From Gemmatimonadaceae bacterium (GTDB lineage: Bacteria > Gemmatimonadota > Gemmatimonadetes > Gemmatimonadales > Gemmatimonadaceae): DNA of 64,000 nt. The DNA lies in the NCBI GenBank assembly GCA_011525845.1, contig WYBP01000008.1, forward strand, positions 372,001 through 436,000. Direction: 5' to 3'. Under the pieces are notes generated by a model, which was not told the origin of the DNA, did no database searches, and saw nothing but the letters and a program-made list of their open reading frames with translations. Of the stretch, positions 32,090-46,229 are shown piece by piece (position 1 is the first letter of the stretch; each line of letters starts with the position of its first letter). The position numbers and the translations under genes are program-made.

Positions 32090-32100
32090 GGGCGTTATCG
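32072..32100 (+). promoter_or_regulatory. candidate promoter for metK inside the end of ptsI
   Basis: TTGCTG (32072-32077), a 17-bp spacer and TTATCG (32095-32100). The -10 box is imperfect. Transcription would start near 32107 and include the strong hairpin at 32116-32148 in the metK leader. Confidence 0.35.
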
Positions 32101-32115
32101 TTCGGCACGCGATAT

Positions 32116-32151
32116 GCGAGTGGCCGGCGTGACGCGCCGGCCATTCGCTTT
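32116..32151 (+). terminator. hairpin after ptsI, before metK
   Basis: A 14-bp stem pairs GCGAGTGGCCGGCG (32116-32129) with CGCCGGCCATTCGC (32135-32148) through one G-T pair and a TGACG loop, followed by TTT and a pyrimidine tract. Probably the terminator of the PTS operon. If metK is transcribed from 32072-32100 it would instead be a leader hairpin/attenuator. It does not match a SAM riboswitch consensus. Confidence 0.6.
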
Positions 32152-32175
32152 CCCTCCCTCCTCGCACCCCGACCC

Positions 32176-33354
32176 GTGCAACATCGCCACCTCTTCACAT
32201 CCGAGTCCGTCACCGAAGGGCACCCGGACAAGGTCGCCGACCAGATCTCCGATGCGGTGCTCGACGCGCTCCTGGCGATCGACCCCGAGTCGCGCGTGGC
32301 CTGCGAGACGATGGTCACCACCGGTCTCGCCACTATCTTCGGCGAGGTCACGACCGAGGCCTGGGTGGATCTCCGCAAGCTGGTGCGCGAGACCATCAAG
32401 GGGATCGGCTACACGGAGGCGGGGATCGGGTTCGACGCCGACTCGTGCAGCGTGCTCAACGCGCTCGGCCAGCAGTCGCGCGACATTGGGCAGGGCGTGG
32501 ACACCGGCGGCGCCGGCGACCAGGGCATGATGTTCGGCTTCGCCTGCGACGAGACGGAGGAGCTGATGCCCCTCCCGATCGTGCTGGCGCACAAGCTCAC
32601 GCACGCCCTCGCGGCGCGTCGCAAGGACGGCACGCTCCCTTGGCTGCGCCCGGACGGCAAGTCCCAGGTCTCGGTGCTGTACGACAAGGGGCGTCCCGTG
32701 GAGGTCGACACGGTCGTCCTCTCGACGCAGCACGCCGAGTCGGTCAAGAACAAGGTCATCCACGAGGCGGTGACGCGCGAGGTGATCGAGGCGGTGATCC
32801 CCCGCGAGCTCCGCGCGAAGAAGATGAAGATCCACATCAACCCGACGGGGCGGTTCGTGGTCGGCGGCCCGCACGGCGACGCCGGCCTCACCGGCCGCAA
32901 GATCATCGTCGACACCTATGGCGGGATGGGCCGTCACGGCGGCGGCGCGTTCTCCGGCAAGGACCCCTCGAAGGTGGATCGCTCGGCGGCGTACGCAGCG
33001 CGCTGGGTGGCCAAGAACATCGTCGCCGCCAAGCTGGCGACGAAGGTCGAGGTGCAGCTGGCCTACGCCATCGGCGTCGCCCAGCCGGTCTCGGTGATGG
33101 TGGACACCTTCGGCACGGGCACCGCGTCCGAGACGGCGATCATGAAGGCGGTCTCCTCGCTCTTCGACCTCACGCCGAAGGGGATCATCACGGCCCTCGA
33201 CCTCAAGAAGCCGATCTACGGACCGACGGCCGCGTATGGGCACTTCGGCCGCGACCCGGTGAAGGCGGAGCGGCTCGGCAAGAAGGTCTCCCTCTTCACG
33301 TGGGAGCGCACGAACCGGGCCGCCGAGCTCAAGCGCGCCGTGCGCGGCGGCTGA
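32176..33354 (+). CDS. metK: S-adenosylmethionine synthetase
   Basis: This 392-residue enzyme makes SAM from methionine and ATP. Signatures: [19 protein letters not shown] near the N terminus, [12 protein letters not shown], and the glycine-rich [16 protein letters not shown]. It starts at GTG; the leader before it is pyrimidine-rich (CTTTCCCTCCCTCC...) with no Shine-Dalgarno. The frame is open far upstream through ptsI, but that part is unrelated to MetK. Confidence 0.95.
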
Positions 33355-33361
33355 GCGGACG

Positions 33362-33890: not shown

Positions 33891-35090
33891 ATGCGGCGGC
33901 GTGCGGTGACCCGCCTCGCTCGCCGCACGGCGTCCGTGGTGCTCGCGGCGTTCGTCGCGCTGCCGCCGCTCACCCTCACCTCTCGCGCGCTCCAGTCGCA
34001 GCCGGCGGAGCGCACGATCGAGGGGCGCGTGGTGCTCCCCGGGCGCACCGCACCAAGCCCGGTGGGAGGGGCGCTGGTCGTCCTCCACCGCGTGGGGGCG
34101 GACGCCGCCGGGCCGCTGGACTCCCTGCGCACACGCGGCGACGGGACGTTCCGCTTCCGGTACCGGCCGAGCGGGGATACCTCGGCGGTCTACTTCGTCT
34201 CGACGAACCGCGGAGGCGTCGCGTACTTCACGGCGCCACTGCGTCAGTCGGCCGCGAGGGGCGCCGACACGGAGCTCCTCGTGTACGACACGACGAGCGG
34301 CCCGGTGAGGATCGCCGTGCAGGGGCGCCACATCATCCTCCCCGCGCCCGACTCAGCGGCGAGCCAGGTGCGCACCGTCATCGAGGTGTACGAGCTCAGC
34401 AATGACTCGACCCTGACGCGCGTGGCGGGGCGGGACGGTGGCGCCACGTTCGGGGCGCCGCTCCCGCCGGGCGTCACGCGCGTGACGGCGGGGCAGGGGG
34501 ACATCTCGCCGGACGCGGTGCGCGTGCAGGATGGCCGGCTGCACGTGGATGCCCCGCTGGCGCCGGGGCTCAAGCAGCTCTCGTTCTTCTATGAGGTGCC
34601 GCTCGATGCGCTCCCGCTCGCCTACACGCTGGAGTCGGACGTCCCGGTGCTCGAGGTGCTGATCGAGGACCCGAACGGCACGGCGTCGGGCGCGGGGCTC
34701 GCCGACCTCGGCCCCGCGCAGGTCGAGGGGCGGGTGTTCCGCCGCTTCCTCGCGTCGAACGCGCCGGCGGCCGCCCAGGTGACCGTCACTTCACCGGGCG
34801 CGGGGATGACGAGCTCACGGCAGCTGCGGCTCATGCTCATCGTGACGGCGGTCGGTGCGGCGATGCTCCTCGGGCTCGGGATGGCGTTCATGCGCAAGGG
34901 ACCCGCGGCGCTCGCGCGCCGGCGCGCTGATGATCCCGAGTCCCTCGCGCTCGCGGTGGCGGCGCTGGACGAGCGCTTCGAGCGGCTGGAGTCCCCCACC
35001 GAGGCGCAGCGCGCCGAGCACTACCTGGCGCGGGCGCAGCTCAAGGGACGGCTCAGTGCCGCGCTTGCCAAGCGTGATGGCCTGGGGTAG
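33891..35090 (+). CDS. membrane-anchored carboxypeptidase-regulatory-like protein
   Basis: This 399-residue protein has an N-terminal signal peptide (basic RRRAVTRLARR, then a hydrophobic stretch). A CarboxypepD_reg-like beta sandwich (about 40-130, RTIEGRVVLPGR) is followed by further beta-rich segments, a transmembrane helix near 320-345 (LMLIVTAVGAAMLLGLGMAF) and a short cytosolic helical tail. The bulk is therefore periplasmic. No catalytic motif is seen and the function is unknown. Its TAG stop forms part of the -10 box of the next operon. Confidence 0.8.
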   Translation: MRRRAVTRLARRTASVVLAAFVALPPLTLTSRALQSQPAERTIEGRVVLPGRTAPSPVGGALVVLHRVGADAAGPLDSLRTRGDGTFRFRYRPSGDTSAVYFVSTNRGGVAYFTAPLRQSAARGADTELLVYDTTSGPVRIAVQGRHIILPAPDSAASQVRTVIEVYELSNDSTLTRVAGRDGGATFGAPLPPGVTRVTAGQGDISPDAVRVQDGRLHVDAPLAPGLKQLSFFYEVPLDALPLAYTLESDVPVLEVLIEDPNGTASGAGLADLGPAQVEGRVFRRFLASNAPAAAQVTVTSPGAGMTSSRQLRLMLIVTAVGAAMLLGLGMAFMRKGPAALARRRADDPESLALAVAALDERFERLESPTEAQRAEHYLARAQLKGRLSAALAKRDGLG

Positions 35091-35093
35091 GTT
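35065..35093 (+). promoter_or_regulatory. promoter of the B12 uptake operon
   Basis: TTGCCA (35065-35070), a 17-bp spacer and TAGGTT (35088-35093). The TAG of the -10 box is also the stop codon of the upstream gene. Predicted start about 35100, exactly where the cobalamin riboswitch begins. Confidence 0.65.
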
Positions 35094-35099
35094 CGCTGC

Positions 35100-35254
35100 A
35101 CAACTGAAGGCGAACGCGGGATACGGAAGCCGGTGTGAGACCGGCGCGGCCCCGCCACTGTAACGGGCAGTACGACACGTCCGCTCATCATGCGCCACTG
35201 GACCCCGCCGGGGACCGGGAAGGCGAGCGAGACGGCCCGGAGCCAGGAGACGAC
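35100..35254 (+). ncRNA. cobalamin riboswitch
   Basis: The stretch contains the conserved elements of the AdoCbl-type aptamer in order: GGGATACGGAAGCCGGTG, the GCCACTG core (35154-35160), a GGGAAGGCG-like segment (about 35217-35225) and the B12 box AGCCAGGAGAC (35241-35251). It precedes btuF-btuC-btuD-btuB, the classic target of this riboswitch. Ligand binding normally shuts off expression. Confidence 0.93.
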
Positions 35255-35344
35255 TCACGTTCGCGCCACATCCGGACCCTCGGGGGAGGGTCGGTGGCGT
35301 TCGCGGCGTCCTGGCTTCTTCCTCGGGACCCGCAGCGTGCGACC

Positions 35345-35376
35345 GGCTTCTTCCTGCGCAGGGAGGAGCCTTTTTC
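35345..35376 (+). terminator. riboswitch expression platform: terminator hairpin covering the btuF RBS
   Basis: A 12-bp stem pairs GGCTTCTTCCTG (35345-35356) with CAGGGAGGAGCC (35359-35370), including two G-T pairs, followed directly by TTTTTC. The right arm is also the btuF ribosome-binding site (GGGAGGAG, 35361-35368), 8 bp before the TTG start at 35377. An extra copy of GGCTTCTTCC lies at 35313-35322, and the purine-rich GGGGGAGG at 35282-35289 could act as antiterminator. Confidence 0.75.
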
Positions 35377-36297
35377 TTGCCTGGTCGCATCGCCCGCCTC
35401 GTCACGCCGTTCTTCCTCGCCCTCGCCTGCGCGGCGCCGCGGGAGGGGACGGAGCGCGTGCTCACGGTCGACGACTTCGGGGACACGGTGCGCATCGGCG
35501 CGCCGGCGCAGCGCGTGGTCTCGCTCAACCCCGTCACGACCGAGTTCCTCTTCGCGATCGGGGCGGGGCACACCCTGGTCGGGCGCACGCACTGGGACCT
35601 CTATCCGGCCGAGGCGCGCGCGGTTCCGGACATGGGGAACGGGATGCAGCCGAACGTCGAGGCGGTGCTCGGCCAGCGGCCGGACCTCGTGATCCTGTAC
35701 GAGAGCGGCTCCAACCGCGGCGCGGTGGCGCAGCTGCGGGCGGCCGGCGTGATGACGCTCACGCTGCGCACCGACCGCGTGTCCGACCTCGCACGCGTCG
35801 CGCCGATCATCGGGGAGGCCGTGGGGCGGCGCGCCGAGGCCGTGGCGGTCGCGGACAGCGTGGCGCGGACGCTGGCCGCGCTGCGCGCGCGTCCCGCTCC
35901 GGCGACTGCTCCCGCGACTGCTCCCGCGACTGCTCCCGCGACTGCTCCGACCATCTTCTGGCACATCTGGGACTCGCCGGTGATGACCATCGGCCGCGGC
36001 TCGTATCTCTCCGAGCTGCTCGAGGTCGCGGGCGCGGTGAACATCTTCGCCGACCTGGCGACGCCCTCGCCGCAGGTCTCGCTGGAGGAAGTGGCGCGGC
36101 GTGACCCCGACTTCGTGCTGGCAGGGCCCGACGGCGCGGCCACGATCCGTGCGCACGCCGGCTGGGCCGCGGTGCGCGCGGTGCGCGAAGGGCGCGTGCT
36201 CGTGGTGGACACCTCGGTCGTCGGCCGGCCGGGCGTGCGGATGGGCGAGGCGGCCCGGCACCTGCGCGCGCTCATCCTGGGGGACACGGCGCGGTGA
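35377..36297 (+). CDS. btuF: vitamin B12 ABC transporter, substrate-binding lipoprotein
   Basis: This 306-residue BtuF/FecB-like periplasmic-binding protein has a type II signal peptide (FFLALAC), suggesting lipid anchoring. The family core VVSLNPVTTEFLFAIGAG and the C-terminal lobe segment (DPDFVLAGP) are present. B12 specificity is inferred from the riboswitch and operon. Between the lobes lies a PAT/APAT repeat encoded by a 12-bp tandem repeat. It starts at TTG; the RBS is inside the terminator hairpin. The stop overlaps btuC (GTGA). Confidence 0.9.
   Translation: MPGRIARLVTPFFLALACAAPREGTERVLTVDDFGDTVRIGAPAQRVVSLNPVTTEFLFAIGAGHTLVGRTHWDLYPAEARAVPDMGNGMQPNVEAVLGQRPDLVILYESGSNRGAVAQLRAAGVMTLTLRTDRVSDLARVAPIIGEAVGRRAEAVAVADSVARTLAALRARPAPATAPATAPATAPATAPTIFWHIWDSPVMTIGRGSYLSELLEVAGAVNIFADLATPSPQVSLEEVARRDPDFVLAGPDGAATIRAHAGWAAVRAVREGRVLVVDTSVVGRPGVRMGEAARHLRALILGDTAR
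35902..35949 (+). repeat. four tandem 12-bp repeats inside btuF
   Basis: The unit GCGACTGCTCCC is repeated four times (last copy ends in G), encoding an Ala-Thr-Ala-Pro tetrapeptide repeat in the linker region between the two lobes. Because each unit is 12 bp, copy-number change keeps the frame. Confidence 0.9.
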
Positions 36298-37268
36298 GCT
36301 GGCGACTCGGTCTCGCGCTGCTGCTCGCGCTGCTGGTGGCGGTCACGCTTGGCTTCGCGGTGGGGTCCGTGCCGCTCGCACCCGACGTCGTCTGGCGGGC
36401 GCTCTTCGGCGCGGGAGACGCGTCGGCGGTCGCGATCGTGCAGGGGCTGCGGCTCCCGCGTGTGGCGCTCGGCGTCGTGGTCGGCGCGGGGCTGGCGGCG
36501 AGTGGCACCGCGCTGCAGGCCACGCTGCGGAACCCGCTCGCCGAGCCCTACCTGCTCGGGGTCTCGGGCGGTGCCGCGGTGGGCGCCGTGCTGACGGTGG
36601 TCTTCGGACTCACCGCGCCCGCACTCCTTCCGCTCTCCGCGTTCGCGGGCGCGACGCTGGCGGTGGTGCTCGTGCTCCTGGTGGCGCGGGCGGCCGGCGG
36701 GCGCGCGGACCCGCGCGTGCTCCTGATGGCGGGCGTCGTGATCGGCGCCTTCTGCACCGCCGCGATCATGGTCGCGCTCGCCACCGCGCCAGAGAACACG
36801 GTGCGCGGCGCGCTCTGGTGGATGATGGGGTCGCTCGGCGATGCCCAGTGGACGAGCCTGCGGTGGATCGCACTCTACGTGGCCCTCGGCCTCGCGCTGC
36901 TCATCTGGTGGGGGCGCGACCTCGACGTCCTCTCGCTCGGCGAGGACGCGGCCGCGTCGCTCGGGCTCGACGTCGAGCGGGTTACGCGGCGGATCTACCT
37001 GAGCGCGTCCCTCCTCGCGGCCGCCACCGTGGCCGGCGCCGGCCTGATCGGGTTCGTCGGGCTGATCGTGCCCGCCATCGCGCGCGCGCTCGGCACCCGC
37101 ACCTCGCGCGGGACGCTCATCGCGTCGGCGCTCGCGGGGGGCGCGCTCGTCGTCGCCGCCGACGTGGTGGCGCGCACCGTGCTCCGGCCCACCGAGTTGC
37201 CGCTCGGCGCGGTCACCGCGCTGGTGGGGGTTCCCTTCTTCCTCTGGCGCCTGCGGGGGCAGCGATGA
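36294..37268 (+). CDS. btuC: vitamin B12 ABC transporter, permease
   Basis: This 324-residue FecCD/BtuC-type permease has about ten hydrophobic segments. Diagnostic stretches are RLPRVALGVVVGAGLAASG, LRNPLAEPYLLGVSGGAAVG and LIGFVGLIVPAIARALG, the last facing the ATPase. GTG start overlapping btuF; ATGA overlap with btuD. Confidence 0.93.
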   Translation: MSWRLGLALLLALLVAVTLGFAVGSVPLAPDVVWRALFGAGDASAVAIVQGLRLPRVALGVVVGAGLAASGTALQATLRNPLAEPYLLGVSGGAAVGAVLTVVFGLTAPALLPLSAFAGATLAVVLVLLVARAAGGRADPRVLLMAGVVIGAFCTAAIMVALATAPENTVRGALWWMMGSLGDAQWTSLRWIALYVALGLALLIWWGRDLDVLSLGEDAAASLGLDVERVTRRIYLSASLLAAATVAGAGLIGFVGLIVPAIARALGTRTSRGTLIASALAGGALVVAADVVARTVLRPTELPLGAVTALVGVPFFLWRLRGQR

Positions 37269-38053
37269 TCCGCGTCGAGGACCTCGTGTTGCGCTACCCG
37301 GGGGCGGCGGAGCCGGCGGTGCGTGGCGTCTCCTTCGCCGCCGAGGCGGGGCGCGTGACGGCCGTGGTGGGGCCGAACGGGTCGGGGAAGAGCACGATTG
37401 TCCGCGCCCTGCTCGGGCGACTGGCCCCGGAGCGTGGGACGCTCACGCTCGACGGGCGTCCCGCCGGGGACTACACGCGCCGTGAGGTGGCCACGACGGT
37501 CGCGGTGGTGCCGCAGCGCGAGGAGCCCGTCTTCCCGATGCAGGTGCGCGACTTCATCGCGCTCGGCCGCTATCCGCATGGCGGCGCGTTCGCGGGACGC
37601 TCCGCGGAGGATCGCGGGGCGATCGACCGCGCCGTGGCCCGCGCGGACGTGGCCTCCTTCCTCGACCGGCCGACCGACGCCCTCTCCGGCGGCGAGTGGC
37701 AGCGCGTGCGGATCGCGCGCGCCCTGGCGCAGGGCGGCCGCGCACTCGTGCTCGACGAGCCGACGACCTTCCTCGACATCGCCCACGAGATGGCGGTGTT
37801 CGAGCTGCTCGACACGCTCGCCCGCGGTGGCCAGGCGGTGCTGCTCGTGAGTCATCAGTTGAACCTCGTGGCCCGCTTCGCGGACCACATCGTGCTGCTG
37901 CACCAGGGCCGCGTGGCCGCCTCCGGGACGCCGGACACGGTGATGCGGGGCGACGTGCTGGAGCAGGTCTACGAGTGGCCCCTCGTCGTCGCCCGCGATC
38001 CCGCCGTCGGTGCGCCCGTGCTCGTGCCGCTCCGCGGGCGCGGCACGCGATGA
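37265..38053 (+). CDS. btuD: vitamin B12 ABC transporter, ATPase
   Basis: This 262-residue ABC ATPase has Walker A GPNGSGKS (36-43), signature LSGGEWQRVRIARAL, Walker B LVLDEPTTFLD and the H-loop VSHQLN. It pairs with btuC and btuF in an overlapping operon. The stop overlaps an ATG (38050) of the receptor frame. Confidence 0.95.
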   Translation: MIRVEDLVLRYPGAAEPAVRGVSFAAEAGRVTAVVGPNGSGKSTIVRALLGRLAPERGTLTLDGRPAGDYTRREVATTVAVVPQREEPVFPMQVRDFIALGRYPHGGAFAGRSAEDRGAIDRAVARADVASFLDRPTDALSGGEWQRVRIARALAQGGRALVLDEPTTFLDIAHEMAVFELLDTLARGGQAVLLVSHQLNLVARFADHIVLLHQGRVAASGTPDTVMRGDVLEQVYEWPLVVARDPAVGAPVLVPLRGRGTR

Positions 38054-45988: not shown

Positions 45989-46075
45989 GGACAGGTGGCC
46001 GAGTGGTTGAAGGCACCGGTCTCGAAAACCGGCATACCGGCAACGGTATCGTGAGTTCGAATCTCACCCTGTCCG
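45989..46075 (+). tRNA. tRNA-Ser, anticodon CGA
   Basis: The acceptor arm pairs GGACAGG with CCTGTCC. The anticodon loop CTCGAAA sits on stem CCGGT/ACCGG and gives CGA (reads UCG). The variable arm is long (TACCG/CGGTA with a GCAA loop), as in class II tRNA-Ser. The T loop is TTCGAAT; the discriminator base is G and CCA is not encoded. The loop has A36-A37-A38, the MiaA/MiaB target. Confidence 0.95.
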
Positions 46076-46141: not shown

Positions 46142-46229
46142 GGACGGGTGGCCGAGTGGTTTAAGGCGCACGCCTGGAAAGTGTGTGTGCGTTCATAGCG
46201 TACCGTGGGTTCGAATCCCACCCCGTCCG
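46142..46229 (+). tRNA. tRNA-Ser, anticodon GGA
   Basis: The acceptor arm pairs GGACGGG with CCCGTCC. The anticodon loop CTGGAAA on stem CACGC/GTGTG gives GGA (reads UCC/UCU). It has a long variable arm with a short stem, T loop TTCGAAT and discriminator G. A36-A37-A38 is present. CCA is not encoded. Confidence 0.95.

Follow-up and report, generated by a model that had tools for sequence, protein, structure and literature searches.

Hairpins that can stop transcription or translation at one site form a described category of riboswitch expression platform, in which transcription and translation attenuation are combined by placing the ribosome-binding site (RBS) in the 3' side of a terminator (Barrick & Breaker 2007, PMC2258182). 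In those platforms, as in the leader described here, the terminator lies near the open reading frame, at most 10 nt from the start codon, with the RBS in its 3' arm, and is predicted to stop transcription or, failing that, to block translation. The antiterminator logic of a cobalamin-type switch has been shown genetically for the corrinoid riboswitch of P. megaterium metE (PMC10653944), with which our locus shares an OFF logic, a kissing interaction between loops L5 and L13 that stabilizes stem P13, a P13 3' strand that acts as antiterminator on the 5' arm of the terminator, and a structured intermediate region that tops the antiterminator. In switches of the E. coli btuB type, where the RBS hairpin operates via P13, a kissing loop likewise governs ribosome access to a B12-uptake gene. 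Our search of the literature, which covered few subscription journals, found no study of the mechanism of cobalamin riboswitches in Gemmatimonadota.

Results

A cobalamin riboswitch precedes a predicted B12-uptake operon

The window, a stretch of 64,000 nucleotides from a soil-type Gemmatimonadaceae bacterium (GenBank assembly GCA_011525845.1, contig WYBP01000008.1, positions 372,001 to 436,000), contains the only match found in this genome to the cobalamin riboswitch family RF00174. The match covers the full model (1-189) and scores 66.9 bits, above the curated gathering score of 31.5. Its main elements, and the genes that follow it, are:

35110-35264, + strand: cobalamin riboswitch aptamer (RF00174; the Rfam match spans 35088-35273)
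35110-35116 with 35258-35264, + strand: stem P1 of the aptamer, GCGAACG with CGTTCGC, the pairing read from the sequence
35150-35154, + strand: loop L5, CCCCG, kissing partner of L13 (from the sequence and a family table of L5 and L13; role from PMC10653944)
35241-35251, + strand: B12 box AGCCAGGAGAC, part of the aptamer
35377-36297, + strand: btuF-like periplasmic binding protein, first gene of the operon (Peripla_BP_2, PF01497, E 3e-30)
36294-37268, + strand: btuC-like permease (FecCD, PF01032, E 2e-85)
37268-38053, + strand: btuD-like ABC ATPase (PF00005)

Together with a TonB receptor, these three genes give the order btuFCD-btuB, and the leader in all likelihood belongs to a vitamin B12 uptake operon of this organism. 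The riboswitch is predicted to bind cobalamin and thereby to change the expression of the genes 3' of it, which are of the B12-uptake type. The neighborhood is syntenic, because many genomes of the family have metK (32100-33360 in the window) some 2 kb ahead of the riboswitch. Two further features of the window are a short PATA-type repeat in the middle of BtuF (PAPATAPATAPATAPATAPT), which derives from a tandem DNA repeat at 35895-35955, and a tandem pair of tRNA genes with long variable arms at 45989-46075 and 46142-46229.

Upstream of the aptamer, a promoter and a start region can be proposed:

35065-35093, + strand: predicted promoter, with a -35 element TTGCCA (35065-35070), a 17-nt spacer and a -10 element TAGGTT (35088-35093), from the sequence and its recurrence in relatives
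35100-35109, + strand: predicted transcription start region, conserved ACAACTGAAG, from the spacing to the -10 element and conservation

The TAG of the -10 element doubles as the stop codon of the upstream open reading frame, as the original prediction had proposed. This promoter is borne out by a TTGC...TAGSTTC pattern that recurs with the same spacing upstream of the riboswitch in most of the printed relatives, from several genera, and is kept also in genera with a different upstream gene, though a strict scan for the sigma-70 consensus did not pick up TTGCCA-17-TAGGTT and found nothing. Transcription would accordingly begin within 35100-35109, a placement that follows from motif spacing and conservation.

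One hairpin joins a terminator-like stem to the btuF ribosome-binding site

Directly in front of btuF lies a second structural element, which is separate from the aptamer:

35345-35370, + strand: putative terminator and RBS-sequestering hairpin, 11 bp with a GCGC loop, from folds, a terminator scan and covariation in relatives
35361-35368, + strand: Shine-Dalgarno (SD) sequence GGGAGGAG in the 3' arm of the hairpin (duplex with the anti-SD -10.4 kcal/mol), 8 nt before TTG
35371-35379, + strand: U-tract TTTTT C TTG, whose last three bases are the start codon of btuF (35377-35379), from the sequence and from T enrichment and A depletion in relatives

The hairpin, GGCTTCTTCCT-GCGC-AGGGAGGAGCC, contains two G-U pairs among its 11, was the top terminator-like match of the 8 kb scanned, and is present in all unconstrained folds. 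With its GC-rich stem followed directly by TTTTT (35371-35375), then by a C and by the first BtuF start, it has the make-up of an intrinsic terminator; with only 6 nt between stem and TTG and the SD in its 3' arm, it also falls within the dual-platform category. The earlier description of a hairpin with TTTTT and a right-arm SD 8 nt before TTG thus stands, except that the stem has 11 bp instead of 12. The SD is placed differently from that of E. coli btuB, since P13 of the window ends at 35299, 78 nt before the TTG, and the separate terminator hairpin has an SD of its own.

In the window alone, the 40 nt before the start have a folding z of -2.0, so that the strength of the folding signal comes from the homologues; a fold of the whole leader was uninformative (z -1.0).

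The hairpin is conserved and covaries across the family

Within Gemmatimonadaceae, RF00174 matches were found in 132 of 148 genomes, and about 130 loci were fetched; a BtuF relative lies directly behind the riboswitch in 108 of these, the window counted. In 103 of the 108, a hairpin stands right before the first start codon in frame, with a gap between stem and start of typically 2-6 nt. These counts include 11 loci in which automatic picks, which had fallen on hairpins in the coding region, were reset by hand to the stem adjoining the start; five loci without a hairpin at the start (L084, L108, L114, L120 and L124) were set aside. Three more loci (L081, L094 and L121) carry the same terminator-RBS platform before another gene, which has no BtuF match and begins with CCTTTATGTTTTTC or a close variant.

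In 95 of the homologues, the 40 nt that precede the start have a mean z of -3.8 (94% below -2), against +0.5 (2% below -2) for a control stretch of coding sequence behind the start of the same loci. Simple pairing counts are inflated, as the hairpins were selected by folding; this z test and the covariation counted in the 23-locus MAFFT alignment are unaffected. The stems vary widely, with 37 different seven-pair stems among 78 loci. When 23 loci from two genera were aligned with MAFFT without constraints, RNAalifold recovered both P13 and the terminator unaided, and an alignment of the window's genus yields the same structures. In the 23-locus alignment, 98.3% of the cells of the terminator's 11 pairs are paired, compared to 85% in shuffles and 54-65% with a slid partner; cells in which both partners changed number 45 versus 15 in shuffles, none of 500 shuffles reaching as high, and the covariation score is 0.66 versus 0.39. 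The covariance of the hairpin in related genomes, proposed beforehand as a check, is thus found.

A T-tract that runs through the start codon

The ten positions that follow the stem are occupied by T and hardly by A. Across the 103 loci, T frequencies at positions 1-10 are.84,.80,.72,.73,.50,.44,.40,.82,.75 and.56, dropping to.27 and.17 beyond, and A reaches at most.11; the dip at positions 5-7 coincides with the G of the start codon, and the T run carries on through that codon into codon 2. Start codons of btuF are TTG (47), GTG (44) or ATG (4), and TTT is the most frequent codon in second place. At 35 control starts, those of ribosomal L14 and metK, T accounts for.00-.20 of the six bases before the start and ATG is used in 29 of 35; this control is small but cleaner than that of the genes in the window, which are similarly T-poor before their starts but whose start calls are crude. 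Both controls rule out the idea that the T-tract is ordinary spacer composition.

We read this pattern as intrinsic termination at a U-tract that would include the start codon. The main competitor to this reading is a purely translational switch, in which the hairpin would do no more than hide RBS and start codon, with the T's forming an AT-rich, unstructured spacer. Such a spacer sits poorly with a tract in which only T is enriched and A is depleted, unlike in the control spacers, in which T's resume past the start codon and end about 10 nt from the stem, and in which ATG starts are near-absent. A purely translational switch does fit the fact that the hairpin is near-universal in the family, yet in about 40% of the loci fewer than 3 T's follow the stem without a break, from which we conclude that termination strength probably varies among loci; the most constant feature, moreover, is the SD carried by the 3' arm, and outside Firmicutes riboswitches are more often predicted to act on translation (PMC2258182). 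In another family of the same order (f2), however, the T-tract adjoins the stem also in loci whose ATG lies about 9 nt further on, and four cobalamin riboswitches of the window's family (L003, L104, L105 and L130) place a T-tracted, terminator-like hairpin tens of bases ahead of any start and look like plain transcriptional versions. On this evidence, we judge the purely translational account unlikely.

A candidate antiterminator formed by the P13 3' strand

Between aptamer and terminator, the following elements can be delineated:

35264-35299, + strand: outer stem of P13, CGCCAC (35264-35269) with GTGGCG (35294-35299), predicted spontaneously on two alignments
35275-35281 with 35286-35292, + strand: inner stem of P13, GACCCTC with GAGGGTC, predicted spontaneously on two alignments
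35281-35285, + strand: loop L13 of P13, CGGGG
35282-35289, + strand: purine tract GGGGGAGG, made up of L13 and the P13 3' strand, SD-like and a putative alternative partner of the terminator left arm (alternative fold, shuffled control)
35293-35344, + strand: variable hairpin between P13 and terminator, putative upper part of the antiterminator (folds; moderate own-versus-swapped pairing)

L5 is complementary to L13, as a kissing interaction would need, and at the level of the family, where L5 reads GCCCCGC or GTCCCGC, the variants of L13 co-occur with it. When the right arm of the terminator is kept open, the best fold of the window pairs the purine strand with the left arm and places the intermediate stem on top. 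The original prediction had pointed to this purine stretch as an alternative partner, which is corroborated by a shuffle control and by the 95 of 103 loci in which at least four base pairs can form between this stretch and the left arm. For an RNA of the window that ends in the terminator loop, the antiterminator fold has -44.7 kcal/mol and the P13 fold -43.8 kcal/mol; at this decision point, the family median of the difference (antiterminator minus P13) is -0.6 kcal/mol, with 68 of 103 loci within 3. Shuffling the sequence downstream of P13 shifts the difference to +3.2, and the value of the own sequence is lower in 90 of 103 cases. In the full-length RNA, the state with an open RBS is about 11.6 kcal/mol less stable than the closed hairpin; as the latter wins once the right arm has been made, the choice must be co-transcriptional.

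For the intermediate stem, support from own-versus-swapped pairing is moderate (67 of 103) and most marked in the genus of the window. The purine tract hardly varies and the left arm, which faces the SD, is pyrimidine-rich anyway, so that these positions cannot display two-sided covariation of the antiterminator. Taken together, the computed folds are consistent with a metE-type antiterminator between P13 3' strand and left arm, which would be mutually exclusive with P13.

A second copy of the left arm (35313-35323), which had been put forward as another switch element, is present in the window and was rejected as a conserved one, with 8-mer copies in only 2 of 103 leaders. Separately, RNAalifold pairs the P1 3' strand CACGT with an ACGTG before the terminator in the window's genus (35256-35260 and the 35335-35340 region; columns 5-9 with 94-98 of alignment A1), a pairing that may connect P1 to the platform.

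A Shine-Dalgarno sequence is placed within the 3' arm

Against the anti-SD of 16S rRNA, the 3' arms of the family average -7.3 kcal/mol, compared to -3.0 for stems with randomly flipped base pairs, and the natural arm beats its own flips in 101 of 103 loci, with a spacing between SD and start of mostly 4-9 nt; the placement of the SD is therefore not a by-product of stem stability. This result bears on the converse possibility of a purely transcriptional switch, in which overlap with the RBS would reflect tight packing and read-through transcripts would be freely translated. Terminator and antiterminator would by themselves account fully for regulation, and the two folds balance just as the left arm is transcribed. 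The flip control, with an SD inside the stem in nearly all loci, argues otherwise; the stem is worth roughly 15-20 kcal/mol, so that a folded read-through RNA would be poorly translated, and four loci (L056, L115, L085 and L088) retain the hairpin with hardly any T-tract. We accordingly rate a purely transcriptional switch as quite improbable. It is least plausible that the sequestered RBS leaves the mRNA untranslated and that Rho, not the hairpin, ends transcription, a kind of control described for E. coli riboswitches (Bastet et al. 2017), as Rho makes no use of a T-specific tract to terminate and hairpin and tract are arranged as an intrinsic terminator.

Both functions of the hairpin, intrinsic termination and sequestration of the ribosome site, look selected, because the stems covary, the SD lies in the 3' arm, and T's rather than A's fill the next 10 nt. 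The initial suggestion that one hairpin serves both ends is hence supported by the family-wide position, the covariation, the placement of the SD and the T-specific tract.

Discussion

We consider it likely that the leader acts as an OFF switch, repressed by B12, and that its expression platform is dual. In the absence of cobalamin, P13 would not be held closed, and its 3' strand (GGGGGAGG...GTGGCG) would pair with the variable stem and with the pyrimidine-rich left arm of the terminator to give an antiterminator; no terminator would then form while RNA polymerase passes, and a ribosome could load. Upon binding of cobalamin, L5 would kiss L13, P13 would close and the left arm would be freed, so that hairpin 35345-35370 could form and RNA polymerase would let go within the U-tract, close to the start codon of btuF; in transcripts that read through, the SD would still be locked in the 3' arm of the hairpin. 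Sequence and comparison establish the elements themselves, how they are conserved, the competing pairings, the place of the SD and the T-tract; the dependence on ligand, the efficiency of termination and the relative shares of transcriptional and translational control are what we infer in this scheme.

The design has already been predicted elsewhere, and comparison within the family makes this leader a well-supported further case of it, unusually compact and kept throughout a bacterial family. What sets it apart is a start codon that lies within the U-tract of the predicted terminator. Relative to the platforms of Barrick & Breaker, the U-tract of Gemmatimonadaceae crosses the start codon into codon 2-3, start codons throughout the family are shifted to TTG or GTG, and the covariation of the hairpin is explicit. 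For P. megaterium metE, only transcriptional control is described; in the present leader, the terminator contains the SD as well, and the 3' strand of P13 resembles an SD in its own right. No report of a riboswitch terminator whose U-tract contains the start codon turned up in the literature searched, which is weak evidence, few subscription journals being covered.

Not all relatives have the hairpin. In two other families of the same order (f2 and f3), an added hairpin was called in 23 of 37 btuF loci (the call at L177 being a coding hairpin), and 11 of the 37 have a direct layout, with the start codon right behind P13 and GGGAGG as the likely SD (L137, L143, L148, L151, L153, L155, L159, L163, L174, L180 and L182). 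Two loci of the window's own family, L108 and L120, have the look of this direct layout, again with the GGGAGG of P13 as likely SD. Homologues without the hairpin had been named in advance as grounds for refutation; this minority limits the universality of the platform without refuting it. The P13 purine strand thus seems to act as the actual SD in the direct layout and to imitate one where the hairpin is present.

The evidence leaves evenly poised a further proposal, according to which U-tract and btuF start codon form one fused element in Gemmatimonadaceae: termination would dictate TTG or GTG starts and U-rich codons 2-3 (UUU, UUC), the purine SD mimic in P13 would rival the true SD for a single anti-SD arm, and the order would hold both an ancestral direct and a derived dual switch.

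Dual terminator/RBS platforms have so far mostly been predicted singly, and about 100 covarying examples from across one family make the idea testable. They suggest that riboswitches of Gemmatimonadota use intrinsic termination and that a single stretch of ten nucleotides can serve both termination and the start of translation, and the direct P13-SD switch, set beside the added dual hairpin, would provide a natural series in which to follow the evolution of expression platforms.
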